From assembly GCF_025232395.1 (NCBI RefSeq), contig NZ_CP065938.1:124001-188000 (forward strand): a stretch of DNA of 64,000 bases, written 5' to 3'. A program made the translations under genes and the position numbers. How positions within the stretch are numbered: position 1 is the first letter of the stretch; each line of letters opens with the position of its first letter. The notes beneath the pieces were generated by a model. That model did not search any database and was not told the origin of the DNA. It was given only the letters and a program-made list of their open reading frames with translations. Below, piece after piece: positions 23,513 to 47,529 of the stretch. Source of the DNA: Taurinivorans muris (GTDB taxonomy: Bacteria > Desulfobacterota > Desulfovibrionia > Desulfovibrionales > Desulfovibrionaceae).

Positions 23513-25408
23513 TTATTTTTCTTGATGGGAAATGCGGTATTTTTCCAGTTTGCGGTAGAGCGTGGGACGGCTTATGCCCAAACTTTTCGCGCAGGAACTC
23601 ATATTGCCCCGGTGTTTTTGCAGGCTTTCGGAAATGATGTTTTTTTCCATTTCATCAAGAGTCAGGTTTCTTATTGCTGTGCCGTCCGCATTGTTTTTTT
23701 CTATTCCGAAATGTTCCGCTTTTATGGTTTTGCCGTCCGCCAAATGTATAGCCCTTTCAATGGCGCTTTCCAGCTGTCGGACGTTTCCGGGCCAAGAATA
23801 ATTGACAATAAGATTATAAATGTTGGGAGCGAGGCATTTGCGGGTGTCAAGGTTGCCGAAGCGTTTAAAAAAATAATCGACAAGAAGGGGAATGTCATCT
23901 CTGCGTTCCCTAAGAGGGGGAATGAGAATTGATAATGTTGTGATACGGTAAAACAAATCCGGTCTGAAGCATTCTTTTTCGATTTCTTTTTTTAAATCCT
24001 TATTTGTGGCTGAAATGATGCGTATATCGATAGGAATTGTTCTTATTCCGCCCACACGGCGGATTTCACCTGTCTGCAAGGCGCGCAGGAGCTTCACTTG
24101 CATATTGAATGGCATGTCCCCTATTTCATCAAGAAAAAGGGTACCGGTATCAGCCAGTTCCAATTTTCCCGGTCTGCCGCCTTTTTGCGCACCCGTAAAA
24201 GCCCCTTCTTCATAGCCGAACAGTTCGCTTTCCAGAAGCTCGCTCGGAATTGCCCCGCAGTTCAGAGCGACAAAAGGTCTGTCGCTTCTGTCGCCGGCAT
24301 TGTGTATAGCTTGGGCAAAGAGTTCTTTGCCTGTTCCTGTTTCGCCGTAAATAAGCAGCGAGGCGGTATTTTTCGCTGCGATTTTTGCAATTTCAAGAGC
24401 TTCCAAAAGCTTCGGACTTGTGCCGACAATAGCGTCAAAAGTGAAATGGGCTTTGGAGCCCGTCATTTCCATTGCCAATTGCATCATTTCCTTTTTTTCG
24501 GTAATAGTGAGGATTGCCCCCACGATTTCGCCGTTTTTCATGATGACGGGGTCGAGGGCGAGAAAGCCGTTTCCTTTATTGGTGCTGATTTCTCTGGCGA
24601 GAAAGCGTTTTCCTTTATGCAACACCTGTTCAAAATTGAAATTTGTTTTTGTAAGCGAGGAAAAAGGTTTTCCAATGCAATTTTTGTCCAGTTCAAATAT
24701 GCAGCGGGCTTTTTGATTGGTTTGCACAATACGGCCCTTCGGGTCGACCGTGACAATACCTTTTGTGCCGGCTTCAAGCAGTGCGGACATATATTTGTTT
24801 TTAATCGCTAGTTCCTTGGAATGGCGCTGCTCTTTTAAATGTGAAGTAACCGCTTCCGCCGCCTGACAAACGAGCCCTAAGGTATGGATATGCATTTTTT
24901 CCGTATAGCCGCTTAATGAAATGACGCCCAAGAGCGAGCCGTCTATATCAAAAACAGGAGCGCCGGAGTTGCTGATGTTTTGCGCCAAGGTCGCATACAT
25001 CTCATTTCCCGGTATATAGATAGGTTTTTTATCTTCAAGGGTAAGCCCGATGGCGCATGTGCCCATATCTTTTTCCGTCCAGCGGTAGCTTGGAATGCAG
25101 TTTCTGTTTTTAAAATGTTCCACAAGGTCGGTATCACCGATGATATAAAGCACATAACCGTCCTTATCCGCCAAAGCCATGCAGAAACCCGTTCCCTGCA
25201 GCAGCGTGTAAAGCTTGTCGATTTGCTCTTTTGCAACGGTATAAAAAGTTTTTTGGTTTTCGATGCGTTCTTCAAGTTCCTTTGCCGTGAGCCTTGTTGA
25301 TTCCGGCGCTTTGGTAAGGTTGGGGTCAATGTTGTATTTTTTTGAACGCTTATGTGAAGAGGCTATGGCTAAAGCCATATCTTGCAGGTTTTTGGGCAAA
25401 ACGGGCAT
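23513..25408 (-). CDS. Sigma-54-dependent enhancer-binding activator (GAF-PAS-AAA+-Fis, AcoR type)
   Basis: 631 residues from ATG 25408. The frame extends to 25480, but the downstream ATG has AAGGA and leaves two operators outside the gene. A GAF-like domain (about 60-185) and a PAS domain (about 205-320) precede the AAA+ module: Walker A GETGTGKE (about 355-362), the sigma-54 contact loop GAFTGA (about 402-407), DEIGDM and the R fingers. The C-terminal Fis-type HTH (MSSCAKSLGISRPTLYRKL) binds DNA. There is no receiver domain, so it probably senses a ligand directly. It faces the TctBAC-dehydrogenase operon, whose -24/-12 promoter and three inverted repeats make it the likely activator. Confidence 0.93.
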   Translation of the reverse strand: MPVLPKNLQDMALAIASSHKRSKKYNIDPNLTKAPESTRLTAKELEERIENQKTFYTVAKEQIDKLYTLLQGTGFCMALADKDGYVLYIIGDTDLVEHFKNRNCIPSYRWTEKDMGTCAIGLTLEDKKPIYIPGNEMYATLAQNISNSGAPVFDIDGSLLGVISLSGYTEKMHIHTLGLVCQAAEAVTSHLKEQRHSKELAIKNKYMSALLEAGTKGIVTVDPKGRIVQTNQKARCIFELDKNCIGKPFSSLTKTNFNFEQVLHKGKRFLAREISTNKGNGFLALDPVIMKNGEIVGAILTITEKKEMMQLAMEMTGSKAHFTFDAIVGTSPKLLEALEIAKIAAKNTASLLIYGETGTGKELFAQAIHNAGDRSDRPFVALNCGAIPSELLESELFGYEEGAFTGAQKGGRPGKLELADTGTLFLDEIGDMPFNMQVKLLRALQTGEIRRVGGIRTIPIDIRIISATNKDLKKEIEKECFRPDLFYRITTLSILIPPLRERRDDIPLLVDYFFKRFGNLDTRKCLAPNIYNLIVNYSWPGNVRQLESAIERAIHLADGKTIKAEHFGIEKNNADGTAIRNLTLDEMEKNIISESLQKHRGNMSSCAKSLGISRPTLYRKLEKYRISHQEK

Positions 25409-25424: not shown

Positions 25425-25441
25425 TGTAAAAAAATATTACA
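25425..25441. promoter_or_regulatory. TGTAA-N7-TTACA operator, copy 1
   Basis: A 17-bp inverted repeat 16 bp upstream of the activator start codon, so it would overlap that gene's own expression signals. It lies about 185-200 bp from the -24 element of the divergent operon. Confidence 0.6.
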
Positions 25442-25442
25442 G

Positions 25443-25459
25443 TGTAAAATTTTATTACA
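25443..25459. promoter_or_regulatory. TGTAA-N7-TTACA operator, copy 2
   Basis: The same arms and spacing as copy 1, one base away from it, so the two form an adjacent pair (centre to centre 18 bp). Confidence 0.6.
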
Positions 25460-25532
25460 TTTATTCAATGTTTTTGTCAAGTGTTGAAATTAGGGCAAAT
25501 GGGAATGTTCAGTTTTGAAAAATGGATTTTGC

Positions 25533-25549
25533 TGTAATGTTTTGTTACA
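25533..25549. promoter_or_regulatory. TGTAA-N7-TTACA operator, copy 3 (upstream activating site)
   Basis: The same 17-bp repeat, 76 bp upstream of the -24 GG. That is within the range typical for enhancer sites of sigma-54 activators. Confidence 0.6.
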
Positions 25550-25623: not shown

Positions 25624-25640
25624 TGGCATGAAATATGCTT
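25624..25640 (+). promoter_or_regulatory. Sigma-54 (-24/-12) promoter
   Basis: TGGCATGAAATATGCTT has GG (25625-25626) and GC (25637-25638) exactly 12 bp apart, matching the RpoN consensus TGGCAC-N5-TTGCW in most positions. Transcription would start near 25650, just ahead of the GAGGAGG ribosome site of the racemase-like gene. Confidence 0.7.
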
Positions 25641-25666
25641 CATATATTGGCAGAGGAGGTATCGCT

Positions 25667-26389
25667 ATGTTTAATGGAACCGTATATCAAGGCGGCAAAT
25701 TGTATTATGAAATACCTGTCGGCATACTGTGTTTGGAGTCGTATTTTCCAAAAATGCGTGGACATTTGCGAAATCCTCATACGTATTCTTTCCCGACGGT
25801 AATGAGCGTAATAAAAGGTCTTGATATTCCGAAACTTCTTTTCAATCCTGCTCAGGAAATGGTCCAGCCGCTCATTGATGCCGCAAAGCAGCTGGAAAGG
25901 GAAGGCGTGAAAGCCATAACAGGCAGCTGCGGTTTTATGGCTCTTTTTCAAAAAGAAATTGCGGAAGCTGTTTCGGTTCCCGTGTTCATGTCCAGCCTTC
26001 TGCAGTTGCCATTAATACGCATAATGCATGGTGAAAAAGCGAATATCGGCATTTTGACCGCTTCAAAAAACGCTTTGACCCCAAGGCATTTGGAAGCATG
26101 CCGTGTGGATTGGGATTCCGTAACAGTGGAAGGAATGGAAGGCAATTTGGAATTTTGGGAAACGATTATCGAAGGAAAGCGTACTGATTTCAATGTTCCC
26201 GAATTGGAACGGGAAATTGTGGGAACTGCGCTGCGGTTCATTGAAACGGGCAAATTGGACGCCCTATTGCTGGAATGCACGGATTTAGCTCCTTTTGCTC
26301 GTCAGATTCAAGAACAAAGCCATGTTCCCGTTTATGATATCAATTCATTGATGATGTTGGTTCATTCAACCGTCAGGTGGAAAATATAG
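25667..26389 (+). CDS. Aspartate/glutamate (hydantoin) racemase-family protein
   Basis: 240 residues from ATG 25667. GAGGAGG is well spaced, and an earlier in-frame ATG at 25628 lies inside the promoter. The family fold has two facing catalytic cysteines; both are present at C88 (AITGSCGFMALF) and C204 (ALLLECTDLAPFA). Relatives include Asp, Glu and hydantoin racemases and maleate isomerase or decarboxylase. As first gene of an operon with an uptake system, RidA and a flavin amine dehydrogenase, it probably interconverts enantiomers of an imported amino or imino acid, but the substrate is unknown. Confidence 0.83.
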   Translation: MFNGTVYQGGKLYYEIPVGILCLESYFPKMRGHLRNPHTYSFPTVMSVIKGLDIPKLLFNPAQEMVQPLIDAAKQLEREGVKAITGSCGFMALFQKEIAEAVSVPVFMSSLLQLPLIRIMHGEKANIGILTASKNALTPRHLEACRVDWDSVTVEGMEGNLEFWETIIEGKRTDFNVPELEREIVGTALRFIETGKLDALLLECTDLAPFARQIQEQSHVPVYDINSLMMLVHSTVRWKI

Positions 26390-26397
26390 GGATACAT

Positions 26398-26910
26398 ATG
26401 AACATATCTGTTAAACTCCGCATTGTCTTGGAAATATGCATAAGCTGTTTTTTGCTTGTTTGTTATTTCGTATTCAGCATTTTTCAGGCGGATATGATTG
26501 AGCAGACGTTATCGCTCGCATTGGACCAAACACTTTTTCCCAAAGCCATAACAATCACGGTCATCATTATGTGCTTTTTGCTTTTTTATGACAGCATACG
26601 CTTATACATCAACCATGAGAAAGGTGTCATCACGCCGGAAATACATGAATTTTACGAATGCAGCGAAGAAAGGATACCGGTAGGAAGGATACTGGTTTAT
26701 ATTGGTCTGCTGTTCAGTTATTTGATCGGGCTTTATTATATCGGTTTTATATATTCAACGCCTGTCATAACGCTGGCTGTCGCAGGTCTGTTGGGCATTA
26801 AAAGAATATTCGTCGCCGCAATTTCAGTGATTGTGTTCACCATAGCTCTTTATTATGCGAGTTTTTACGGACTTCAAATACTGCTGCCCAGCGGCATATT
26901 GTTTTACTAA
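26398..26910 (+). CDS. tctB: Tripartite tricarboxylate transporter, small membrane subunit TctB
   Basis: 170 residues from ATG 26398, 8 bp after the previous stop. Four hydrophobic segments (about 10-30, 45-63, 100-120 and 125-160) fit the TctB family, which is weakly conserved. The call leans on the following TctA and TctC genes. It forms the inner-membrane complex with TctA. Confidence 0.82.
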   Translation: MNISVKLRIVLEICISCFLLVCYFVFSIFQADMIEQTLSLALDQTLFPKAITITVIIMCFLLFYDSIRLYINHEKGVITPEIHEFYECSEERIPVGRILVYIGLLFSYLIGLYYIGFIYSTPVITLAVAGLLGIKRIFVAAISVIVFTIALYYASFYGLQILLPSGILFY

Positions 26911-26922
26911 AAGAGGTGTCAG

Positions 26923-28431
26923 ATGATTGAAGATGTCGTCCTTGGGCTTATTTCAATTCTTAATCCCGCTTCAATATTGGCTATTGCATTCGGTTTGGCG
27001 GTTGGCTTGCTTTTTGGCTCTATTCCCGGAATTTCAGGCATAATGGCAATATCCATTTTGCTTCCTTTGACTTTTTATGTGAGTCCCCTTGTCGGTATTC
27101 CCATGTTGTTAGGCATTTATAAAGCAGGTATTTACGGAGGGTCAATCACTGCCGTCTTATTGAACACTCCCGGTGCTCCGCCTGCCATCTGCACGGCTAT
27201 GAGCGGTTTTCCCATGGCACAGCGCGGGCAGGCGGGAAAAGCCTTGAATGCCGCCTTGGTCGGGTCGGTTTATGGCGATATGTTCAGTAACTTGCTGCTT
27301 ATCTTAGTTGCGGCGCCGATTTCCTATATTGCTATGAAAATCGGTCCGGCAGAGCAGTTTTGCCTTTTGCTGCTCGCTCTTACCGTTGTGGGCAGTATTT
27401 CCGGCAATTCCATTCTGAAAGGAATGACTTGCGCAGGATTTGGCATTTTGCTTTCCATGGTGGGAGTTTCAGGCGTAAGCGGGGCAATTCGTTTTACTTT
27501 CGGCAGTGATTATTTACTGTCAGGCATTCAGCTTATTCCTATGGTGATCGGTTTGCTTTGTTTGCCGGAAATCATTCATCAGGTGGGAACGTGCGCAAAA
27601 AATTACATAACGCAAAAAATTGATTTGAAAAGTGAGAACGGACGGCTGACTTGGAAAGAGTTTAAGCAAAATTCGTATTTGTTATTCCGTTCTTCCGTGA
27701 TCGGTTCGATTATCGGCACAATGCCGGGACTTGGGGCTTCTCCCGCGGCTTTCATGGCATATTCTGATGCCCAGCGGCGCTCAAAAGATCCGGAAGCTTT
27801 TGCAAAAGGAAATATCGAAGGGGTTCTTGCCCCGGAAGCGGCAAATAACGCCACAACCGGCTCTGCCATGATTCCGCTTTTGACGCTCGGTATTCCCGGT
27901 GATGATGTGACCGCGGTTTTAATGGGGGCGTTCCTTATTCAGGGCATAACTCCGGGACCGAACATTTTCTTTGAACATACGCAGGTTGTTTACGGTATTT
28001 TCGGGTCTTTGATACTCTGCGATATTTTGTTGTATATCATTGCCAAATTTGGTTTCAGGATTTGGATTAAAATTGTGGATTTGCCAAGAAGCCTGATTTT
28101 TTCAAGCGTGACCATTTTCGCATTTATAGGAACGTATTCGATAAATCAAAGTTTATTTGATATTTTCTGTCTTATTTGCTTTGGCATTATGGGATATTTG
28201 ATGCGTATTTTTCATTTCAGCGCGGGAGCGATGATCATCGGTTTCATTTTAGGTCCGATTTTGGAAAAAGCCTATGACCAAAGCATGAGTTTATCCGGCG
28301 GAAGTTATATGATTTTCTTTGAAAGTCCTGTTGCCGTGCTTTTACTGCTTATGACGCTTGCGGGCATGATTAGCATTTACCGCATGCGTGTAAGGAAATA
28401 TAAAAAATTAATGGAAAAAACATTGTCTTAG
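26923..28431 (+). CDS. tctA: Tripartite tricarboxylate transporter, large permease TctA
   Basis: 502 residues with about 11-12 membrane segments. Family signatures are GLLFGSIPGISGIMA (about 27-41), YGGSITAVLLNTPGAP (about 73-88), IGTMPGLGASPAA in the second half and PLLTLGIPGDDVTAVLMGAF. It is the ion-coupled channel of the TTT system. AGAGGTG precedes the ATG. Substrate choice lies mainly with the binding protein. Confidence 0.95.
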   Translation: MIEDVVLGLISILNPASILAIAFGLAVGLLFGSIPGISGIMAISILLPLTFYVSPLVGIPMLLGIYKAGIYGGSITAVLLNTPGAPPAICTAMSGFPMAQRGQAGKALNAALVGSVYGDMFSNLLLILVAAPISYIAMKIGPAEQFCLLLLALTVVGSISGNSILKGMTCAGFGILLSMVGVSGVSGAIRFTFGSDYLLSGIQLIPMVIGLLCLPEIIHQVGTCAKNYITQKIDLKSENGRLTWKEFKQNSYLLFRSSVIGSIIGTMPGLGASPAAFMAYSDAQRRSKDPEAFAKGNIEGVLAPEAANNATTGSAMIPLLTLGIPGDDVTAVLMGAFLIQGITPGPNIFFEHTQVVYGIFGSLILCDILLYIIAKFGFRIWIKIVDLPRSLIFSSVTIFAFIGTYSINQSLFDIFCLICFGIMGYLMRIFHFSAGAMIIGFILGPILEKAYDQSMSLSGGSYMIFFESPVAVLLLLMTLAGMISIYRMRVRKYKKLMEKTLS

Positions 28432-28450
28432 CACAATGAAGGAGTGTTTT

Positions 28451-29422
28451 ATGAACGTGAAAAAACTATTCGGTTCCGTAACGGCTGTTGCGCTGGCTGT
28501 GCTTTTTGCCGCAGGAAGCGCCGCATATGCAGCCGCTTATCCCCAAAAACCCATTACTCTGATCAGCCCTTATGGCGCCGGCGGTGATTCTGACATCGCC
28601 GCCAGAGTATGGGCTGAATTTGCCAAAAAAGAACTCGGTCAGCCTGTTCTTGTCGTGAACAAAACCGGCGGGGGCGGATTGACCGGCACAATGTTCGCTT
28701 CCAAGGCAAGACCTGACGGGTATACCCTTTTCTTAGGACAGCTGGGACCTTGCGTCATGCTGCCCATCACGACAAAAGCCGGCGGGCTGAACAAAGACAG
28801 TTTCGACATGGTCGCCCGTTTTGCAACGTCCAATACCGGTGTTGTTGCGAATGCCGATTCTCCGTGGACAACATTAAAAGATTTTGAACATGACGCAAAG
28901 CAAAATCCTCAAAAATACACGTTCAGCGACCCTTCCGCCACAAGTTGGCTCGCATTGGCGTTTAAAGGCTGGATGCACAATAATTCCGTTTCCGCCAAGG
29001 TTGTGCAATATACGAGCGGAGCGGAAGCCGCAACTGCCGTTCTTGGAAAGCATGGCGATATCTCATTTCTTTTTAAAGCAAACTTTGATTCCCTCGTGAA
29101 AGGAAATAAATTGAAATTATTGGCTGTCGGTCAAAAAATGGAGGAATATCCGAATGTGCCCACATTCAATGATTTGGGGTATGCGGGCAACTATATTGCT
29201 TGGGCAGCCATTGCAGCCCCTAAAGGTTTGCCGGAAGAGATCAGGGAAAAACTTCAAGCCGTGACGGAAAAAATCAGCAAAGACCCCGAATTTGTCAATG
29301 CGCTGAAAAATGTCGGATTTGGCATAGATTATCTTGACGGTGCGGCTTTCAAGCAAGAAGTCGATAAACAATATTCGGATATGCAAGACTTTTTAAAAGC
29401 TATGAATTTAGCTGTGCAATAG
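28451..29422 (+). CDS. tctC: Tripartite tricarboxylate transporter binding protein TctC (Bug family)
   Basis: 323 residues from ATG 28451 (AAGGAG upstream). A signal peptide (MNVKKLFGSVTAVALAVLFAAGSAAYA) is followed by the Bug body: YPQKPITLISPYGAGGDSDIAAR, then NKTGGGGLTG, and PDGYTLFL. It captures the substrate in the periplasm. Bug proteins bind carboxylates and amino acids, so the ligand cannot be read from sequence. The gene order B-A-C differs from the common C-B-A. Confidence 0.93.
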   Translation: MNVKKLFGSVTAVALAVLFAAGSAAYAAAYPQKPITLISPYGAGGDSDIAARVWAEFAKKELGQPVLVVNKTGGGGLTGTMFASKARPDGYTLFLGQLGPCVMLPITTKAGGLNKDSFDMVARFATSNTGVVANADSPWTTLKDFEHDAKQNPQKYTFSDPSATSWLALAFKGWMHNNSVSAKVVQYTSGAEAATAVLGKHGDISFLFKANFDSLVKGNKLKLLAVGQKMEEYPNVPTFNDLGYAGNYIAWAAIAAPKGLPEEIREKLQAVTEKISKDPEFVNALKNVGFGIDYLDGAAFKQEVDKQYSDMQDFLKAMNLAVQ

Positions 29423-29430
29423 GGGAAAAT

Positions 29431-29808
29431 ATGGCTATTCAGCGTTTCGGAACACCGAAGCAAGGGGCGCTGCCTTTTGCGAAGGCGGTGGCGGCAGGCG
29501 GGTTTTTATACGTGTCAGGTCAGGTCCCCCGTGATGAAAAAGGCGAAATCGTATGCGGCAATATGCTTACGCAAGCGAAAGTAACGCTTGATAATTTGAA
29601 AAAGGTTGTGGAAAGCGCGGGATACGGCATGCAGGATATTGTCAAAGTCGAAGCTTGGATTGACGACCCAAGGGATTTTGTCGACTTCAATAAAGTGTAC
29701 GCGCAGTATTTCAGTGCGGAACATGCTCCTGCAAGGGTGACCGTTCAGGCAGAAATGATGAGTGATCTTCGTGTCGAAGTTGCTTGTGTCGCCTATAAAG
29801 CGCAATGA
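29431..29808 (+). CDS. RidA/YjgF-family imine deaminase
   Basis: 125 residues with VSGQVPRD, LDNLKKVVESAG, a conserved Arg in APARVTVQ and Glu in VEVACVAY, the positions used by RidA for imine hydrolysis. It starts 8 bp after tctC and sits just before a flavin amine or amino-acid dehydrogenase. This fits clearing of reactive imine product, though dedicated catabolic RidA paralogues also exist. Confidence 0.9.
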   Translation: MAIQRFGTPKQGALPFAKAVAAGGFLYVSGQVPRDEKGEIVCGNMLTQAKVTLDNLKKVVESAGYGMQDIVKVEAWIDDPRDFVDFNKVYAQYFSAEHAPARVTVQAEMMSDLRVEVACVAYKAQ

Positions 29809-29833
29809 TCAATTTTCGTAAAAGAGTTTTTCT

Positions 29834-30961
29834 ATGCTAAGTTCCCAAAAAGAGTATGATATCATCATTGCCGGCGGCGGCATAAGCGGAGCTGCCGTCG
29901 CGTATGGATTAATCAGTAAGAACAGCCGGCTTAAAATTGCCGTTCTCGATGCGCCGACAGAAATAAACAGGGCGTCCAGAACCAACGTCGGGCTTGTTTG
30001 GTGCCAGTCAAAATTTGCGGATAAACCGCATTATGCAAAATGGGGCTTTTTATCCAGAAGGGCGTATCCCGGACTTTTGCAGGAATTGCAGGAAGTTTCA
30101 GGCATAAAGGTTCCCGCTTATTTTGAAGGCGGATTGATTCCTGTTTTGAGCGGGCAGGAATATGAGAAAAAAGGCGAATATATCGAAAGACTCCGCACCG
30201 TTCTTGGCGAGTATCGCGGAAACATGATTGACAGAACCGAACTTGAAAGGAAATTACCCAAAATTTCTTTCGGTCCCGAAGTTTGCGGTGCCGCATGGTG
30301 TGAAGAAGACGGATTTCTGAATCCTTTGGCTTTACTTCGTGCATACCGCTTGGCATCGGTCAGGAGCGGCGTCGATTTTTTCAATGATACTGTTGTTTAT
30401 TCTGTCGAACCGAAAGATGACGCTTACATTGTTCATACTCAACTTGGCGGATTTAGCTGTGAAAGACTTGTGCTCGCATGCGGGCTCGCCAATAAACGTT
30501 TGGCGCAGTTCGTCGTGCGGGATTTGCCGATTTTTGCGGATAAGGGGCAGGTTTTATTAACGGAACGCATGCCTTTCGTCATGCCCATTCCTGTGCTTGG
30601 CTGTACGCAAACCGTTGCGGGCACTGTGATTATCGGTTTTAAACATGAAACAAGGGGGCACGATGCCACTGTTATTCCCCATGCTGTCGCACAGGAAGGC
30701 GCATGGGCTTTAAAGGTATGGCCGGAGCTTGGGGGCAAAAGGGTTATCCGCTCTTGGCCCGGACTTCGTGTCATGCCTAAGGATAAGGTTGCCATTTACA
30801 GCCATTTGCCGGGACATGAAAAGGTTACCGTGGTCAATACGCACAGCGCCGTGACCATGGCGGCGGCTCATACCCGCCATGTTGCCGGGTATGTCCTTGG
30901 AAAAGAGCTTCATGAATGCGCAGGGGATATGACGCTTAAACGTTTCGGTTATGCGGTTTAG
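29834..30961 (+). CDS. FAD-dependent D-amino-acid-oxidase-like dehydrogenase subunit (HcnC / hydroxyproline dehydrogenase beta type)
   Basis: 375 residues of the DAO fold: the dinucleotide-binding IIIAGGGISGAAVAYGL near the N-terminus, a substrate domain in the middle, and a C-terminal segment with RSWPGLRVMPKD. With the next two genes it matches the three-part complexes HcnABC, opine/nopaline oxidases and D-hydroxyproline dehydrogenase, in which this subunit oxidises the C-N bond. Electrons would pass to the 2Fe-2S protein and second flavoprotein, so no oxygen is needed. The substrate is not identified. Confidence 0.87.
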   Translation: MLSSQKEYDIIIAGGGISGAAVAYGLISKNSRLKIAVLDAPTEINRASRTNVGLVWCQSKFADKPHYAKWGFLSRRAYPGLLQELQEVSGIKVPAYFEGGLIPVLSGQEYEKKGEYIERLRTVLGEYRGNMIDRTELERKLPKISFGPEVCGAAWCEEDGFLNPLALLRAYRLASVRSGVDFFNDTVVYSVEPKDDAYIVHTQLGGFSCERLVLACGLANKRLAQFVVRDLPIFADKGQVLLTERMPFVMPIPVLGCTQTVAGTVIIGFKHETRGHDATVIPHAVAQEGAWALKVWPELGGKRVIRSWPGLRVMPKDKVAIYSHLPGHEKVTVVNTHSAVTMAAAHTRHVAGYVLGKELHECAGDMTLKRFGYAV

Positions 30962-30969
30962 GGGGAAAT

Positions 30970-31242
30970 ATGGATACTGCCATGGTACGGATCAATGTTG
31001 ATGGGGAAGATATGCTTGTACCCGCCGGTATCAGCGTAGCCGCCGCTGTTTTGGGGCATAAGCATGAACGGCATGCTTTTCATAACGGAAGAGACGGCGG
31101 TCCCCGTTCTCCCTATTGTCTTATGGGGGTATGTTTTGAATGCATGCTGGAAATTGACGGCGTAAAAAATGTGCAATCTTGTCTTGTGCCAGTGCGTGAG
31201 GGCATGACAGTGAAAAGGCAATATCAAGCGGGTAAGGAGTAG
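30970..31242 (+). CDS. 2Fe-2S ferredoxin-like subunit of the dehydrogenase (HcnA type)
   Basis: 90 residues. Cluster cysteines C50, C55, C58 and C71 (CLMGVCFECM...QSC; spacing 4, 2, 12) match the Fer2_4 family that accompanies HcnB/HcnC-type enzymes. It starts 8 bp after the DAO gene with GGGGGAAA upstream and ends 2 bp before the next gene. The family role is electron transfer between the two flavoproteins. Confidence 0.9.
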   Translation: MDTAMVRINVDGEDMLVPAGISVAAAVLGHKHERHAFHNGRDGGPRSPYCLMGVCFECMLEIDGVKNVQSCLVPVREGMTVKRQYQAGKE

Positions 31243-31244
31243 GT

Positions 31245-32624
31245 ATGGCTGATAATATGGATTTGCTCATTGTCGGAGCGGGGCCTGCGGGGCTCGGTGC
31301 TGCGATTTCCGCGCAGGCTTGCGGGCTTGATGTTGCTGTTGCCGATGAATATGCGGCGATTGGCGGACAAATTTTTCGGAATATCCATTTGCCGTGCATT
31401 GAGCATGTTTTGGATAAAAGAACTCTGGAAATTGGCAGGACGTTGGTTGAAAATTTTGAAAAGAGCGGTGTTCGGTTTCATCCCAACACGACGGTATGGG
31501 GAATGGAAGGTTCTGAAATTTTTTGCAAAAGCCTCACGGAAGTGAAGAAAATTTCCGCAAGCAAAGTTTTGTTTGCAACCGGCGGATATGAAAGGCCGGT
31601 TCCGTTCAAAGGGTGGACTTTGCCGGGAGTTTACACGGCGGGTGCGGCGGAAATGCTCTTCCGTTCCGCAGGAGAACTGCCAACCAGAAAATCTCCTGTG
31701 GTACTTTGCGGAAACGGACCTTTGCTCATGGCGCTTGCGGTGCATTTGATAGAACACGGTGTTCCTATTTCAGCATGGCTTGATACGGGGAAATTCAGCA
31801 GCAAACTTTCTGCCCTTGCGTATTTGGGCAGAATTTTTCACGATATGCCGTATTTCAAGCATGGCATGCGTTTGGCTTTGGAAATTCTTAAAGCAAACGT
31901 TCCGATTATCACCGGTGTTACAAATATCGAAGCTCATGGCGGTGAATTTGTTGAAAAAGTGGTATTCACAAAAAACGGCAAAACGCATGAACTTGCGGCG
32001 TCAACGCTTATTCGTCATGAAGGCGTCATACCGCGCATTCAAATTCCCGATTCCCTTGGCATGGATTTGGCTTGGGATACTGTGCAGCGGTATTGGTATC
32101 CTAAAACGGATGGATTTGGCAGAACGTCATTGAACAATGTTTACATCACGGGGGACAATTCCTTTGTGCATGGCGGTGAAGCCGCTATTTGGAAAGGGTA
32201 TGTCTGCGGATACGCCATTGCGGAAGATTTAGGCATTGTGCCTGATTCGGAAGTGAAAGAAAAATCGCAGGAATATGTCCGAAAAATGGAATTGCTTTGC
32301 AGGGTACGGGAATATCTGCGTCATGTTTTTGCTCCTAATCCGGAAATTTTCAATGTTTCTGACGACACAATCGTTTGCCGCTGCGAATGTGTGACGGCAG
32401 GTGAGGTGCGGCAGGCGGTGAAAGAGGGCTTCACCAATCCCCGGGAAGTAAAAATCGCCACCCGTGCAGGCATGGGAACATGTCAAGGCAGAAGCTGCGG
32501 CGTCGCCCTTGCGGAAATTATCGCCCAGGAAACCGGAAATAAGATGGAACAAGTGGGCATTCTGAAAAACAGGCAGCCTTTTGAACCTGTTTTTTTGGCT
32601 GATTATTGCGCATTGCACGCATGA
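31245..32624 (+). CDS. FAD/NAD-binding dehydrogenase subunit with C-terminal BFD-like [2Fe-2S] domain (HcnB type)
   Basis: 459 residues. GAGPAGLGAA at 11-20 is the first dinucleotide site; a second is around VVLCGNGPLLMALAVHL (about 150-168). The C-terminal bacterioferritin-associated-ferredoxin-like domain has C378, C380, C413 and C418 (CRCEC...TCQGRSC). This is the alpha subunit of HcnABC-like and opine or hydroxyproline dehydrogenases. It completes the eight-gene operon begun by the racemase-like gene. Confidence 0.9.
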   Translation: MADNMDLLIVGAGPAGLGAAISAQACGLDVAVADEYAAIGGQIFRNIHLPCIEHVLDKRTLEIGRTLVENFEKSGVRFHPNTTVWGMEGSEIFCKSLTEVKKISASKVLFATGGYERPVPFKGWTLPGVYTAGAAEMLFRSAGELPTRKSPVVLCGNGPLLMALAVHLIEHGVPISAWLDTGKFSSKLSALAYLGRIFHDMPYFKHGMRLALEILKANVPIITGVTNIEAHGGEFVEKVVFTKNGKTHELAASTLIRHEGVIPRIQIPDSLGMDLAWDTVQRYWYPKTDGFGRTSLNNVYITGDNSFVHGGEAAIWKGYVCGYAIAEDLGIVPDSEVKEKSQEYVRKMELLCRVREYLRHVFAPNPEIFNVSDDTIVCRCECVTAGEVRQAVKEGFTNPREVKIATRAGMGTCQGRSCGVALAEIIAQETGNKMEQVGILKNRQPFEPVFLADYCALHA

Positions 32625-32697: not shown

Positions 32698-33363
32698 CTA
32701 TATTGCCCGCAAAAGTTGGACCATGGTTTCTTTCGTATTTTCTATGCTTATCATGCGGCCAAAACGGTTGAAACATTCTTCATGTTCGCAGGCTATGAAT
32801 GTGGGGCGGAAGCCTTCCGCTTCGGCAGGGATGTCTTTGATGATACAGCCGGAGCCGTTTTGCTTGATGACTTCCTCATGAGGGAGCCAGCCAAAGCGAA
32901 ATTCTTCCAGATTTTTTTGCAGTGTCTGCGGCGTGAGTTTTGTGATATCATGTTCGAAAGCGGCGTAAATTTCATTCTTATAGGCAAGAACGGCAAAGAA
33001 ATTGTAATTGTTTTCAACAATCAATGTTATGCCCTCCTGAAAATTCCTTTCATTAATTTTTGGAAGGGCAAGGGCGGAAAGAAGTTTTTCAAGGCGAACG
33101 TCAAATTGATACGTGCAGGAATTTCGTGTTTTTGTTTTTTCAACCCAAGCAAGCGGATTATGCGATTTATGGATATTGTTCCAAAACCCGAAATCGCTGT
33201 TTTCTATGGAAATGTAAGTTTGTTCGGGAGAAAGGCCTTTCAGAAAATCGGCATATTCTTCCTGCCGGGCGGAGGAAAATTCCTGCAGCAGTTGAAATGA
33301 AGAATTTTCTTGGCGGAATATTTTGATGTCATGCGAATTTTTTTCAATATAAAGTGTTTTCAT
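32698..33363 (-). CDS. Protein of unknown function
   Basis: 221 residues from ATG 33363; a GTG two codons earlier is an alternative, and neither has a clear ribosome site. No signal peptide or membrane segment is evident. The start MKTLYIEKNSHDIKIF and a C-terminal stretch SGCIIKDIPAEAEGFRPTF are the only distinctive parts. I do not recognise the family; a distant tie to DUF1786-type proteins crossed my mind but cannot be supported. It stands alone, divergent from the RlpA-like gene. Confidence 0.65.
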   Translation of the reverse strand: MKTLYIEKNSHDIKIFRQENSSFQLLQEFSSARQEEYADFLKGLSPEQTYISIENSDFGFWNNIHKSHNPLAWVEKTKTRNSCTYQFDVRLEKLLSALALPKINERNFQEGITLIVENNYNFFAVLAYKNEIYAAFEHDITKLTPQTLQKNLEEFRFGWLPHEEVIKQNGSGCIIKDIPAEAEGFRPTFIACEHEECFNRFGRMISIENTKETMVQLLRAI

Positions 33364-33460
33364 ATTCACTGTATAGGCTATTTTTTCATCTTTGAAAAGT
33401 TAATCTTTTGTTTAAAAAGATGGATTTGAAAAATAAAGTTTTTTGTGTTAGGGTGGCATC

Positions 33461-43029: not shown

Positions 43030-43068
43030 TCCTCTTTTGTTCTTTTCGGGGCGAAAGGGGATTTTTTA
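43030..43068 (+). terminator. Rho-independent terminator of the proC operon
   Basis: ATCCTCTTT and AAAGGGGAT form a stem with G-T pairs, followed by TTTTTT; it touches the end of the convergent sbcC gene. Confidence 0.6.
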
Positions 43069-46000
43069 ATGAAGTTTTTTACAGCCGGCGCCTTGTAAAA
43101 TGCTTCTTCCGCCCTGTTCGGGAATGACGTTTATTTGGGTGTTGATTCTTTCTTTTAAAAGCGGAATATGGGAAATGATGCCGATAAGCTTTCCTTCCTG
43201 CTGGATACTGGCAAGGGTTGAAAGGGCGGTATCAAGATTTTCCTCGTCAAGCGTTCCGAAACCTTCGTCAAGAAAAAGTGAATCCACCCGTACGTTTTTG
43301 CTTGCCATTTGAGCAAGTCCCAGTGCAAGGCTGAGGCTGACGATAAAGCTTTCGCCGCCTGAAAGATTTTGCACAGCCCTTATTTCGCCTCCCTGATAAT
43401 TGTCAAGCACATTTAAATTGAGAAGATTGTTTTTATCCTGAATGAGCAAATAGCGCTTTTGCAATAACTGCAATTTCATATTGGCATAATGCAAAACCTG
43501 TTCAAAAGTGATTGCTTGGGCTATTTGCCTGAATTTTTTGCCGTCAGCAGAACCGACAAGCGAATTTAAAGCATCCCATTTGGCTTGGATATGTTCCTGT
43601 TTTTTCAGTTTTTGGAGTTTTTCGTTGTATGTGTTTGCAATTTCTTGATTTTGTTTGAGTTTTCCTTGAATTTCACCAAGTTCCACAAGGCTTGCTTCTT
43701 GTTTTTCCCGAATGTTTTTTTCCTGTTCTTCCAATTCCTGTTTTGAGCCGGCTGTTAAATTTTTATTTTTAAGAGTCTGCAGCTCTTTTTCGCTTTCCGC
43801 AAGTTTGCTTTGGGTAAGTTTTATGTTTTGTTCCAATTCCTTAAAAATGTGCTGTAAGTGCTGCAATTCTTCTTTGGAGAGCTGCGCTTTTAAAAAATCT
43901 TCAACATCGGAAAATTCTTGCTCTTGCAGTTTTTGCAGAAATTCTTCCTTTAGCATGGAAACGTTTTTGCTTTTTTCCGCAAGAAATGCCTGCAGATGGT
44001 TGATTTGTTCCTTGCTTTGGGTCACTTCCTGATTTTGTTTATCCTTTTCTTGAAGGATTTTTTCTTTTTTTTCTTCAAGTTCATTGATTGATTTTAATAG
44101 TTTTTCTTCTTCGGTTTGAGGATTTTTTTGAGCAAAATCTTTTTCACGTTTTCTTTTAATGGAAGAATATGTGTTTTTTTCTGTCTGGAGCTGCCCGTTT
44201 TTGTATGTGAGATTGTTTTGTATGACTGCAAGCTGTGTTTGCAGGCTTGCCAGTTGTTTTTCATTTTCTTGCAATTTTTGTTCAATGTCTTGTTTTTGTT
44301 TGTTTTTCATGTCAAAATTTTTCAGATGTCCTTCCAGTATTTCGGTAATGTCCTGGTTTTTATTAGGGATAATTTCCGTGATATTGAAAGGTTTGACTTG
44401 CTGCAATAATGTCTCTTTTTCTTCATTGTACTGTTTTAAAAGTTCGTTCCGTTCTTTTTGAAATTCTTGTATCAGCTTTTCTTTATTCATAATTTGGCGG
44501 GCATTGTCTTGGATTGTTTGCCCGATGTTTTCAAACCGCTTATTGTTTTCTGCTAAAAGAAGGTCTATTTTATCTTGTTCCTGTTTTAATTTTTCAATTT
44601 CCTCAATTTGGTGTTTCAGTTGTTTGATATCGATATCAATATCGGAATTGCCGGACGGAATTATGGCGTCCTTTTGCATAAAAGGATGGTGGATTGAACC
44701 GCACAGCGGACATTCCTCGCCTTCCCGCAATGTTTTTCTCTGTTCTTCAAGCGCTGAAATTTGCGCAAGCAGGAATTTTTTTTCTTCAAGAAAAGAAAGC
44801 GTTGTTTTTAATTCTTGCAGGGAATTTTCTTTCAACAGCGTTTCAATTTGTCCGGTTATTTGTTTTTGTTGTTTTTGTTTAAGTTTTGTGTCGGCAATAA
44901 GTTCTTTTTGGCTTTGTTCTTGTTTTGCGTTGTTCGTTTTTTGGTGTTTTAATTCCTCTTCCTGTTCTGCGATTTTATTTTTTGTTTGTTTGCCGGATTC
45001 AATTATCGTATCTAGGTGTATTAAATTGTTTTTTATGGCGCTCAGTTCCTGTTTCAATGTTTCCAAGCACGTATTTGTCTGAAACCAGTTTGAAAGTTCG
45101 TCTTGTTCCTGCCGTATTGCTGCGTTTTTTTTGTCTATCTCTTGTATATCAGAGGCAATTTTTTGTTTTTCTTTTTCTGATTGTGCAATTTCCGTTGATT
45201 GCGCCTGAATGTTTTTATTGATATTTTCAAGTTCGATATCCAATTTTTTTATTTCCTCGAAAAGAGGGCGCAATTTCTCATAATTTATTTTTTCTTGCTG
45301 ACAGTTGTTGTGTATTTCTTCGATTTTTTGAATGAGAAGCTTTAATTGTGTTTCCTGCTTCGGCAGATTTTTTTCCAATTCGGTCAGGCTGGCTTGCGCG
45401 TTTTGGATTTCTTTTTCCTGCAAATTAAGGGCATGGTATTCCGGATAAAGTTTTTCCGCTTTTTCGGCTTTTATCAGCTGAATTGCTTTTTCTTCCGAAG
45501 CTTTTTTTTGTTCAAGAAAATTCTTGTGCTGATTTTTTGCCGTATCATTTTTTTCTTGCAGTTCCTGCATTTGATTATGCCAAAGAATGAATGCCCGGAT
45601 TTGGGACAGTTGTTGATTAATCGTTGCTAATTCTTGATTATGCGTTTCTTGCCGGTTTTTTAATTTTTCGATTTCCTCCGGAGGCAATAGCGAAGTATTG
45701 TTTGCTAAAAGGATTAAGCGTTCTTTTTTTTCTTTTTCTGATTTTGCACGCTGATATATTGTTTGGGAAATTTCCGAATAAATTTCCGTGCCTGTGATTT
45801 GTTCCAGGAGCATTGATTTTTCTTCGTCCCTCGCCTTTAAAAAACTGTCAAAAGCTCCTTGCGCCAATAGGATTGAACGGGTGAAACGGGGAAAATCCAT
45901 GCCCGTAATACGGATAATTTCTTCATTGATTTCCGTTTTTTTTCGGCAAATGATTGAATCAGGCTTTTCTTTGGCAATGCTTCTTTCGACATCCTGGAGT

Positions 46001-46323
46001 TTTCCGTTCGGATTGTTTTTTGCTTTTCTTTGTTCAAAACGGGCATAATATTGTATTCCTTTTGTTTCAAAATGCAAAAGGGAATAGCAGTCTGCCGTGT
46101 GCTTTGACATGACTTCATTGTTTGTTTGGGTGATTTTTCCGAGGCGTGGGGTTTGTCCGTAAAGGGCGAGGCAAACAGCGTCCAAAATGGTGGATTTTCC
46201 TGCTCCTGTCGGACCGGATAAGACAAACAATCCGTCATTCTGATAGGTTTTATCGGTAAAATCAATAAACCATTCGCCGTAAAGCGAGTTGAGATTTTTT
46301 AATTGTAAACTGAGTATCTTCAT
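43066..46323 (-). CDS. sbcC: Exonuclease subunit SbcC (Rad50-like ATPase)
   Basis: 1085 residues. Walker A GPTGAGKST is at 37-45, two long coiled-coil arms rich in Glu, Lys and Gln flank the zinc hook C538-P-L-C541, and the C-terminal half has the signature LSGGESFIVSLSLALGLAQ and Walker B LFLDEGFGTLDEE. With SbcD it cuts hairpins and protein-blocked DNA ends. The gene starts 3 bp after the sbcD stop. Confidence 0.96.
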   Translation of the reverse strand: MKILSLQLKNLNSLYGEWFIDFTDKTYQNDGLFVLSGPTGAGKSTILDAVCLALYGQTPRLGKITQTNNEVMSKHTADCYSLLHFETKGIQYYARFEQRKAKNNPNGKLQDVERSIAKEKPDSIICRKKTEINEEIIRITGMDFPRFTRSILLAQGAFDSFLKARDEEKSMLLEQITGTEIYSEISQTIYQRAKSEKEKKERLILLANNTSLLPPEEIEKLKNRQETHNQELATINQQLSQIRAFILWHNQMQELQEKNDTAKNQHKNFLEQKKASEEKAIQLIKAEKAEKLYPEYHALNLQEKEIQNAQASLTELEKNLPKQETQLKLLIQKIEEIHNNCQQEKINYEKLRPLFEEIKKLDIELENINKNIQAQSTEIAQSEKEKQKIASDIQEIDKKNAAIRQEQDELSNWFQTNTCLETLKQELSAIKNNLIHLDTIIESGKQTKNKIAEQEEELKHQKTNNAKQEQSQKELIADTKLKQKQQKQITGQIETLLKENSLQELKTTLSFLEEKKFLLAQISALEEQRKTLREGEECPLCGSIHHPFMQKDAIIPSGNSDIDIDIKQLKHQIEEIEKLKQEQDKIDLLLAENNKRFENIGQTIQDNARQIMNKEKLIQEFQKERNELLKQYNEEKETLLQQVKPFNITEIIPNKNQDITEILEGHLKNFDMKNKQKQDIEQKLQENEKQLASLQTQLAVIQNNLTYKNGQLQTEKNTYSSIKRKREKDFAQKNPQTEEEKLLKSINELEEKKEKILQEKDKQNQEVTQSKEQINHLQAFLAEKSKNVSMLKEEFLQKLQEQEFSDVEDFLKAQLSKEELQHLQHIFKELEQNIKLTQSKLAESEKELQTLKNKNLTAGSKQELEEQEKNIREKQEASLVELGEIQGKLKQNQEIANTYNEKLQKLKKQEHIQAKWDALNSLVGSADGKKFRQIAQAITFEQVLHYANMKLQLLQKRYLLIQDKNNLLNLNVLDNYQGGEIRAVQNLSGGESFIVSLSLALGLAQMASKNVRVDSLFLDEGFGTLDEENLDTALSTLASIQQEGKLIGIISHIPLLKERINTQINVIPEQGGRSILQGAGCKKLH

Positions 46324-46326
46324 AAT

Positions 46327-47529
46327 TTATTCGTTTATGTCTTTTTCCGCCAAGGCGGTTAAAATTTCATGATAGCAAGCGAGCAGTTCTTGTTTTTCTT
46401 CATCCGGATAGGATGTTTTTTCTAAAATTCTGTCGAATATTTTTTGCGGGTCGAGGTCTTCAAGGTTTTCTTCCGACAGCGTATCATTGATATAGTAATC
46501 AATAATATTTTGATTTTTGAATTTGAGAATTTCAATTTTGCTGTCGGCGGTCAATGCGAAAAGCATATCTTTTAAATTGAATTTATCCTCGCCGCTGTAT
46601 TCGACTTCAAGCCATACGGATTGACCGAGGGCTTTCAGTTTTTCAATTTCCTGCCGTATTGCGGAAAAGTTTCCGCAAATTTTGCGGGTTATTTGAAATT
46701 CCGGAATTTCTATTTCCTGTACGGATAAAGAATTTTCCGTGTCAAGAACGAGCATTTTTTTCTTGTTGCTTTTTTCTGCGAAACTCATGGCGAGGGGAGA
46801 GCCGGAGTAACGGATATGTTCGGTTTTGGCGATTTTTTGCGCTGAATGGATATGACCGAGGGCGGCATAATTAATTTCTTTTGGAAAAATATCGGCAGAA
46901 ATTTTGGCGAGGGAGCCGATGTAAAGTTCCCGCTCCCCTTCTTCCTCAAGCTGGGAGCCTGCGATATAGAGGTGTCCCATGGCGAGGAGCGGACTGTTTG
47001 CCTGTTTTTGTTTCAGGGCGATTTCTGTAAGATTTTTGTAATGTTCGGCAATGGACCGAACGATTTTTTCCGCTCTTGTTTCATAATTTTCCGTAATCGC
47101 TATGCCCTGCAAATCGCGTTCACGCAAATAAGGAACGGCAAGAATGATTATTTCTTCGCCGTTATGTCGGATGGGAATAATTTCATCATGGATGTTTTCC
47201 GGCATAGCCCCTATGACATGGATGTTGAGGGATTTTAAAAGCGCCTGCGGGGCATTTAAAAAACTTGGGGAGTCGTGGTTTCCGCCGGTAATGACAACAT
47301 GTTTGCAGGAAGTGCCGCGTAAATCAATTAAAAAGGAATAATAAAGGTGCTGGGCTGAGTTGTTGGGAAGGGCTGTATCGAAAATGTCGCCTGCGATAAG
47401 CAGTACGTCGATTTGTTCTTTTTGAATCAATGCAAGCAGCCATGCAAAAAAAGCCGCATATTCCTCATTTCTTTTTTTGCCGTAAAACGTGCTGCCGATG
47501 TGCCAGTCGGAGGTATGCAATATTTTCAT
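46327..47529 (-). CDS. sbcD: Exonuclease subunit SbcD (Mre11-like nuclease)
   Basis: 400 residues with the metallophosphoesterase series: MKILHTSDWHIG (D8, H10), LLIAGDIFDTALP, ITGGNHDSP, MGHLY and LGHIHSAQ. The C-terminal cap domain contacts SbcC. First gene of the sbcDC pair; divergent from a GntR-type regulator. Confidence 0.96.
   Translation of the reverse strand: MKILHTSDWHIGSTFYGKKRNEEYAAFFAWLLALIQKEQIDVLLIAGDIFDTALPNNSAQHLYYSFLIDLRGTSCKHVVITGGNHDSPSFLNAPQALLKSLNIHVIGAMPENIHDEIIPIRHNGEEIIILAVPYLRERDLQGIAITENYETRAEKIVRSIAEHYKNLTEIALKQKQANSPLLAMGHLYIAGSQLEEEGERELYIGSLAKISADIFPKEINYAALGHIHSAQKIAKTEHIRYSGSPLAMSFAEKSNKKKMLVLDTENSLSVQEIEIPEFQITRKICGNFSAIRQEIEKLKALGQSVWLEVEYSGEDKFNLKDMLFALTADSKIEILKFKNQNIIDYYINDTLSEENLEDLDPQKIFDRILEKTSYPDEEKQELLACYHEILTALAEKDINE

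Follow-up and report, generated by a model that had tools for sequence, protein, structure and literature searches.

A window of 64,000 nucleotides (positions 124001 to 188000 of the 2.17-Mb single contig) was analyzed in the genome of Taurinivorans muris, which its published description presents as a taurine-respiring bacterium of the mouse gut that has a 2.2-Mbp genome and respires sulfonates (PMC10507020). The window carries an operon encoding a racemase-like protein, a tripartite tricarboxylate transporter (TTT), a RidA-family protein, and a heterotrimeric flavin/2Fe-2S dehydrogenase, with a sigma-54-dependent activator gene divergent from it (Table 1). The eight operon genes are co-directional on the forward strand with spacings from a 13-base overlap to 25-base gaps, and the next notable open reading frame (ORF) on the 3' side, at 32698-33369, lies on the opposite strand. 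The operon is real at these coordinates; an earlier note on this DNA had joined the same eight genes, and order, strand, and coordinates all match. The racemase start at 25667 given in that note is also preferred over the longer ORF start at 25628, because the latter falls within a conserved -24/-12 promoter element (25624-25639) and because GAGGAGG at 25653-25659 precedes the former. The racemase is 100% identical to the copy in metagenome-assembled genome UBA8003 (contig L013), which belongs to the same species according to that description (PMC10507020).

Genes and control region

The racemase matches PF01177 with 36.9 bits (cut-off, 31) and the PRK07475 subfamily with 245 bits (cut-off, 231). 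Both catalytic cysteines, Cys88 and Cys204 counted from 25667 (C101 and C217 in the alignment), are invariant in 25 of 25 aligned homologues, which bears out the Asp/Glu-racemase-like enzyme with two catalytic cysteines noted previously. A fold search returned allantoin racemase 3qvk (Z score of 18.9, root mean square deviation [rmsd] of 2.7, 207 residues aligned), hydantoin racemase 2eq5 (18.1, 2.8, and 197), Asp racemase 2dx7 (17.3, 3.3, and 208), and arylmalonate decarboxylase 3eis (Z score of 15.0), and singled out no substrate. Fold and cysteines thus place the protein in the Asp/Glu/hydantoin racemase superfamily, with racemization as the predicted activity. TctA, TctB, and TctC all score above the Pfam cut-offs, and the transporter is complete.

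The dehydrogenase genes have the layout of heterotrimeric flavin amine dehydrogenases, a tandem of beta, gamma, and alpha subunits with DAO, 2Fe-2S, and flavin adenine dinucleotide (FAD)/2Fe-2S domains, respectively. The beta subunit has a GxGxxG motif (GGGISG at 14) and an Arg-X-Trp motif (RSW at 306), and the aligned counterpart of its Arg312 in glycine oxidase 1ryi is the arginine within GLRPGTKDG (Arg302), which binds the alpha-carboxylate. In the gamma subunit, C50-C55-C58-C71 fits C-X4-C-X2-C-X11-12-C. The alpha subunit scores 43.9 bits with Pfam Fer2_BFD (cut-off, 26), and its cysteines C378-C380-C413-C418 have 32 residues between the two pairs, compared with C-X-C-X15-20-C-X4-C in the published pattern (PMC4575208). 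A structure model of the DAO subunit, based on four sequences, was set aside; its mean predicted local distance difference test score was 51.2. RidA matches PF01042 with 101.3 bits (cut-off, 27.3) and TIGR00004 with 91.7 bits, below the cut-off of 106.25; its Arg102, in PARVTVQ, was taken by eye as the equivalent of the active-site Arg, presumably Arg105 in the reference numbering.

The activator ORF is readable up to a TTG start at 25480, which would give 655 amino acids with GAFTGA at 426. The ATG at 25408 was taken as the start, since it yields 631 amino acids as in the relative at locus L014 and leaves the putative activator sites free. The best NCBIfam model is PrdR (NF041552), with 384.8 bits against a cut-off of 795, and the six relatives looked at have GSFTGA in place of GAFTGA. 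Both an AAA+ domain with GAFTGA and a -24/-12 target promoter, the hallmarks of sigma-54 activation, were found. When the sequence preceding the operon was aligned with that of three relatives, a conserved block appeared, TTTGGCATGAAATATGCTT in the window, with GG-N10-GC. All 15 loci tested have the -24/-12 element (L095 and L096 lie outside this test); the best element fits 9 to 11 of 12 positions of a degenerate consensus that was picked after the element had been seen, and at each locus no more than 7 of 200 mononucleotide-shuffled versions of that stretch match its score. The promoter differs from a generic -24/-12 consensus at 3 positions and therefore escaped a scan of the window with that consensus, in which no more than 2 mismatches were allowed. 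Scans for sigma-70 promoters (13 sites versus a shuffle mean of 16.9) and terminators (19 versus 14.0) gave no support for either.

Three exact copies of TGTAA-N7-TTACA lie upstream of the operon and are the only copies in the window at up to 1 mismatch. At the same stringency, all 17 scanned loci with an activator gene and a racemase gene have at least one copy next to the operon, as do the racemase-free loci L038 and L039; no copy is found beside the operon in L041 and L042, whose trimer and activator are more distant. TGTAA-N7-TTACA is the putative binding site of the activator. An exact double site (spacer of 0 to 30) occurs once in the 2.17-Mb genome, so control of the operon looks dedicated, by one regulator. 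The sigma-54 control proposed in the earlier note is supported by the activator, the promoter element, and the likely sites, but the activator gene lies outside the coordinates given there. What is new here is a sigma-54 circuit with a defined candidate site, comprising the -24/-12 element and TGTAA-N7-TTACA, and this candidate site makes the substrate of the operon directly testable.

Table 1. Features of the operon and its control region (positions in the window)
Feature	Position	Strand	Basis
Sigma-54-dependent activator, GAF + PAS + AAA+ (GAFTGA) + HTH_8, divergent	23513-25408	-	Domain matches, motif
Putative activator site 1, TGTAA-N7-TTACA	25425-25441		Motif scan
Putative activator site 2, in tandem with site 1	25443-25459		Motif scan
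Putative activator site 3	25533-25549		Motif scan
-24/-12 promoter element TGGCATGAAATATGCT, GG-N10-GC	25624-25639	+	Alignment of relatives, consensus scoring
Two-Cys Asp/Glu/hydantoin-type racemase (PF01177; NCBIfam PRK07475 subfamily)	25667-26389	+	Family models, fold, Cys
TctB, small membrane subunit of TTT transporter	26377-26910	+	Pfam
TctA, large membrane subunit of TTT transporter	26923-28431	+	Pfam
TctC, solute-binding protein of TTT transporter	28436-29422	+	Pfam, structure relatives
RidA-family imine deaminase (predicted)	29431-29808	+	PF01042
Dehydrogenase beta subunit, DAO family, presumed catalytic	29834-30961	+	Pfam, GxGxxG, RxW
Dehydrogenase gamma subunit, 2Fe-2S	30970-31242	+	C-X4-C-X2-C-X12-C
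Dehydrogenase alpha subunit, FAD + BFD-type 2Fe-2S domain	31245-32624	+	Pfam, motifs

Recurrence of the module

The racemase was detected in 22 of 288 Desulfovibrionaceae genomes at an E value of 1e-50, two of these 22 carriers being of the same species. A sample of 345 genomes from the phylum, partly shared with the Desulfovibrionaceae set, contained 5 carriers. Genes of the relatives were picked as ORFs by ourselves and labeled by BLAST, with unlabeled neighbors mostly left without identity. In total, 24 of the 27 Desulfobacterota racemase loci examined, a number that includes the window and not the same-species contig L013, hold the racemase together with RidA and the beta, gamma, and alpha subunits (a RidA cut by a contig end in L084 was counted as present), which indicates that the gene set is beyond chance. 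The other three are L080 and L081, with racemases of 44 and 41% identity and without the remaining module genes, and L088, which stops at a contig edge after TctA. The rarity in anaerobic sulfite or sulfate reducers implied in the earlier note is not supported as stated, given the 22 Desulfovibrionaceae carriers and the presence of the whole operon in another family of the phylum (L079, with a TTT transporter). Three genomes (G484, G486, and G487) carry two copies of the module each.

The transporter is exchangeable: the 24 complete loci have a TTT transporter in 10 cases, a sodium:solute symporter (SSS) in 13 (Pfam-checked in L035 and L036, as in the racemase-free L038, and labeled by BLAST in the remainder), and none in 1 (L094). 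In L084 and L086, TctA and TctB were found but not TctC. Because a sodium symporter replaces the TTT transporter in 13 of 24 loci, the ligand of TctC alone would be a weak refutation of the earlier interpretation.

Outside the phylum, the racemase was found in 25 of 292 genomes of Rhodobacterales, the order of a Leisingera genome, at an E value of 1e-60, and 25 of 26 places were examined. A DadA-type single-subunit dehydrogenase adjoins the racemase or is encoded close to it in 24 of these 25 loci, and a TAXI-type TRAP permease is likewise present in 24. Three plasmids show further arrangements. In Oceanisphaera, a symporter, a DadA-type enzyme, and the racemase face a convergent set of RidA, trimer, and TRAP genes; in Paracoccus, a TTT transporter accompanies the DadA-type enzyme and the racemase; and in Agrobacterium, a more distant racemase (36.5%) occurs with the trimer, with RidA and an aspartate-dehydrogenase-like gene divergent.

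Further arrangements occur in genus g6. In L038, L039, L095, and L096, a trimer-RidA-symporter operon adjoins a glycyl radical enzyme gene, with the activator in between; the enzyme of L038 matches (2S)-3-sulfopropanediol dehydratase (NF048011, 1573 bits), and the other three were labeled by BLAST. L041 and L042 contain a distant trimer (beta subunit, 31% identity), a TRAP transporter, RidA, and a related sigma-54 activator and perhaps represent a sister operon for another substrate.

Proposed route and its substrate

The operon is best read as a dedicated, substrate-induced unit in which a racemase/dehydrogenase couple, similar in logic to DadX-DadA, oxidatively deaminates one acidic alpha-amino acid, a reading to which we assign a probability of roughly 55%. 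The GAF/PAS activator would sense a ligand, bind TGTAA-N7-TTACA, and fire the sigma-54 promoter, and TctABC, judging from its family, would bring in the amino acid. The two-Cys racemase would interconvert the L and D forms, the heterotrimer would oxidize the alpha C-N bond of the D form, and RidA would hydrolyze the imine to a 2-oxo acid and ammonium. Electrons would exit through the 2Fe-2S centers to some acceptor; nothing at the locus identifies that acceptor, and the delivery of electrons to respiration proposed in the earlier note was not borne out. The route from L-X through D-X and an imine to a keto acid is favored over opine or hydroxyproline breakdown. Uptake, racemase, dehydrogenase, and RidA in one operon under a sigma-54 activator stand from the earlier interpretation, whereas the rarity, the opine or hydroxyproline substrate, and the fate of the electrons are not supported as stated.

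The nature of the substrate is suggested by the racemase. In a tree of 67 racemases built with a quick method, the trimer-linked and DadA-linked enzymes group together, apart from the rest, with a Shimodaira-Hasegawa-like approximate likelihood ratio test (SH-aLRT) value of 88. Two racemases depart from this split, L080 within the dehydrogenase-linked group and L047 outside it on a long branch, and L087, whose racemase is masked by an overlapping ORF and was found by tblastn, is not in the tree; we regard the separation as moderately supported. Lys29 and Arg/Lys35 are each present in 52 of 52 dehydrogenase-linked racemases and in 1 of 14 others (counted from the 67 rows with L047 left out, L087 missing, and L088 counted as trimer-linked). 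Both adjoin Asn36, in the loop where we assume that aspartate racemase holds the side-chain carboxylate. This position makes an anionic side chain likely, and the substrate is most likely aspartate, glutamate, or cysteate. In addition, a free amino acid is suggested by the DadA-type enzyme that accompanies the same racemase clade in all but one of the 25 Rhodobacterales loci.

Several observations weigh against an acidic amino acid oxidized in its D form. The best TctC matches among solved structures are 25hk (126.4 bits), 2dvz (126.1), 4x9t (107.4), and BugD (105.3); 2dvz and BugD, which presumably bind Glu and Asp, speak for an acidic ligand, but the scores do not discriminate, since 25hk scores as high as 2dvz. 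Allantoin and hydantoin racemases match the racemase structurally slightly better than Asp racemase does, and Lys29 and Arg/Lys35 may serve another role. Members of the heterotrimer family are mainly associated with opines, hydroxyproline, and other amines rather than with free acidic amino acids, and the D specificity of the trimer would follow by analogy with the DadA-type enzyme that accompanies the same racemase clade elsewhere. Finally, L038 and L039 have the trimer, RidA, symporter, activator, and sites in a racemase-free stretch, and a search of their genomes (G130 and G144) at an E value of 1e-50 returned no racemase, which indicates that the racemase is not always needed.

Two known systems resemble this route in their logic. 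In the DadX-DadA alanine couple, an FAD-dependent D-amino-acid dehydrogenase is paired with a racemase, DadX being pyridoxal phosphate dependent and DadA single subunit; the dguRABC D-glutamate locus of Pseudomonas combines such a dehydrogenase, the single-subunit DguA, with RidA and a binding protein. Every part of the present operon belongs to a known family, and a transporter, the trimer, and RidA are already combined in the octopine operon of the Ti plasmid; the racemase partner and the conservation of the module in anaerobes appear to be new. The combination is not described in the titles or abstract openings of the literature searched, a search outside which most subscription papers fall. 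The operon represents a conserved, presumably catabolic module of host-associated sulfidogens, in which an exchangeable transporter, a racemase, RidA, and a heterotrimeric dehydrogenase are placed under one sigma-54 activator. Should its substrates be acidic D- or L-amino acids, the operon would provide oxygen-free amino acid oxidation in H2S-producing gut bacteria.

Alternative substrates

Cysteate is a possible, though unlikely, substrate: L-cysteate would be imported and racemized, and D-cysteate would be oxidized to sulfopyruvate (then to sulfolactate, for SuyAB) or passed to CuyA, a new route in gut sulfonate metabolism. CuyA (NF052482, above cut-off) is encoded in 85 of the 288 Desulfovibrionaceae genomes, among them 21 of 22 racemase carriers (all except G149) and 64 of 266 noncarriers (Fisher P = 1.8e-11, ignoring phylogeny and shared habitat). 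The sulfonate respiration of T. muris fits this possibility, as do 8 of the 25 Rhodobacterales loci, where the operon continues with TSUP and CuyA-like genes, with RidA in 6 of the 8. However, T. muris LT0009 is reported to show no growth on cysteate as acceptor (PMC10507020). SuyB, present in 68 of 288 genomes, is not enriched in carriers (8 of 22 versus 60 of 266; P = 0.19). The operon racemase is not CuyB (NF052483, 29.7 bits; cut-off, 190, passed in 27 of 288 genomes). Nor does it stand in for CuyB, since CuyB-class racemases (at least 150 bits, our own threshold, counted by hand) are similarly frequent in CuyA-positive carriers (15 of 21) and CuyA-positive noncarriers (40 of 64; P = 0.60). 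With a score of 337.2, the CuyA-like protein of Ruegeria stays below the CuyA cut-off (450), and the eight TSUP/CuyA-like loci probably represent few events, as their racemases are 86 to 94% identical to the Ruegeria query. A cysteate racemase had been considered as a simple answer on the basis of one Ruegeria plasmid carrying the racemase, TSUP, and the CuyA-like gene; two other Ruegeria plasmids lack the latter two genes, and the idea was kept only as a rival. The operon keeps company with CuyA and neither replaces CuyB nor follows SuyB.

Somewhat less probable is a specific form of this alternative, an operon for cysteate or amino-sulfonate oxidation in which a flavin/2Fe-2S D-cysteate dehydrogenase, with the racemase and RidA, would yield sulfopyruvate without a transaminase. 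Such a role would not conflict with the reported nongrowth on cysteate as acceptor. If true, the enzyme activity would be new, as would this way into sulfonate metabolism, and an amino-sulfonate would supply gut sulfite reducers with both electrons and nitrogen. In the CuyA/CuyB system, an Asp/Glu superfamily racemase likewise precedes a D-specific enzyme (PMC11382572); unlike that system, the operon racemase falls far below the CuyB cut-off, and the CuyA gene of this genome lies elsewhere (1766297-1767289). The CuyA locus of T. muris (L164:8088-14554) is apart from the operon and contains TRAP genes, another RidA gene, and the gene of a GntR-like regulator identified by eye, and a CuyB-like racemase (175.5 bits) is encoded at 1050112. 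In two other genomes (G544 and G113; loci L166 and L167), the neighborhood of CuyA includes a CuyB-class racemase, an aminotransferase, and an HpsN-like protein of the histidinol dehydrogenase family, a set resembling the route from 2,3-dihydroxypropane-1-sulfonate to cysteate (PMC11382572).

Catabolism of an opine or secondary amine, in which the trimer would cleave an N-alkylated amino acid and the racemase would act on the freed amino acid, is doubtful to a similar degree. The beta subunit shares 34.6% of 344 aligned residues with OoxB, the beta-gamma-alpha order is that of opine and D-hydroxyproline dehydrogenases, and the octopine (occ) operon of Ti plasmids clusters a transporter, OoxB (beta), a 2Fe-2S subunit (gamma), OoxA (alpha), and RidA in the same layout (OoxAB/OdhABC, flavin-containing opine dehydrogenase; PMC4575208). 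However, occ has an ABC transporter, OccR, ornithine cyclodeaminase, and a racemase-free stretch, whereas the window has a TTT transporter, a sigma-54 activator, and a two-Cys racemase. The heterotrimeric D-hydroxyproline dehydrogenase shares subunits and gene order and acts at the second step of its pathway (PMC4575208); here, by contrast, RidA and an enzyme of the Asp/Glu racemase family are the partners. No ornithine cyclodeaminase or proline racemase is encoded among the eight genes of the window operon (relatives were not searched), and the opine or hydroxyproline substrate considered in the earlier note is also disfavored by the single-subunit DadA-type partner of the same racemase clade in Rhodobacterales. 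The first step of the D-hydroxyproline route is catalyzed by an epimerase of the proline racemase family. Least probable of all is a route from another acid or a hydantoin, with the racemase-like protein acting as an isomerase, a decarboxylase, or a hydantoin racemase that shares the fold. The allantoin racemase, hydantoin racemase, and arylmalonate decarboxylase matches speak for it, as do the peptidase and hydantoinase-like genes (the latter judged from N termini only) beside related racemases of 35 to 41% identity. It is disfavored in that both catalytic cysteines are retained, that the eight operon genes include no hydantoinase or carbamoylase, and that dehydrogenase-linked racemases split from the others on the quick-method tree with one "other" row inside.

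Elsewhere in the window, a long minus-strand gene (43066-46323) for an SbcC-like protein rich in Lys and Glu is accompanied by an SbcD-like gene (46327-47529), both named by eye, and the former accounts for a strong AT skew (-0.413 in 44001-46000).

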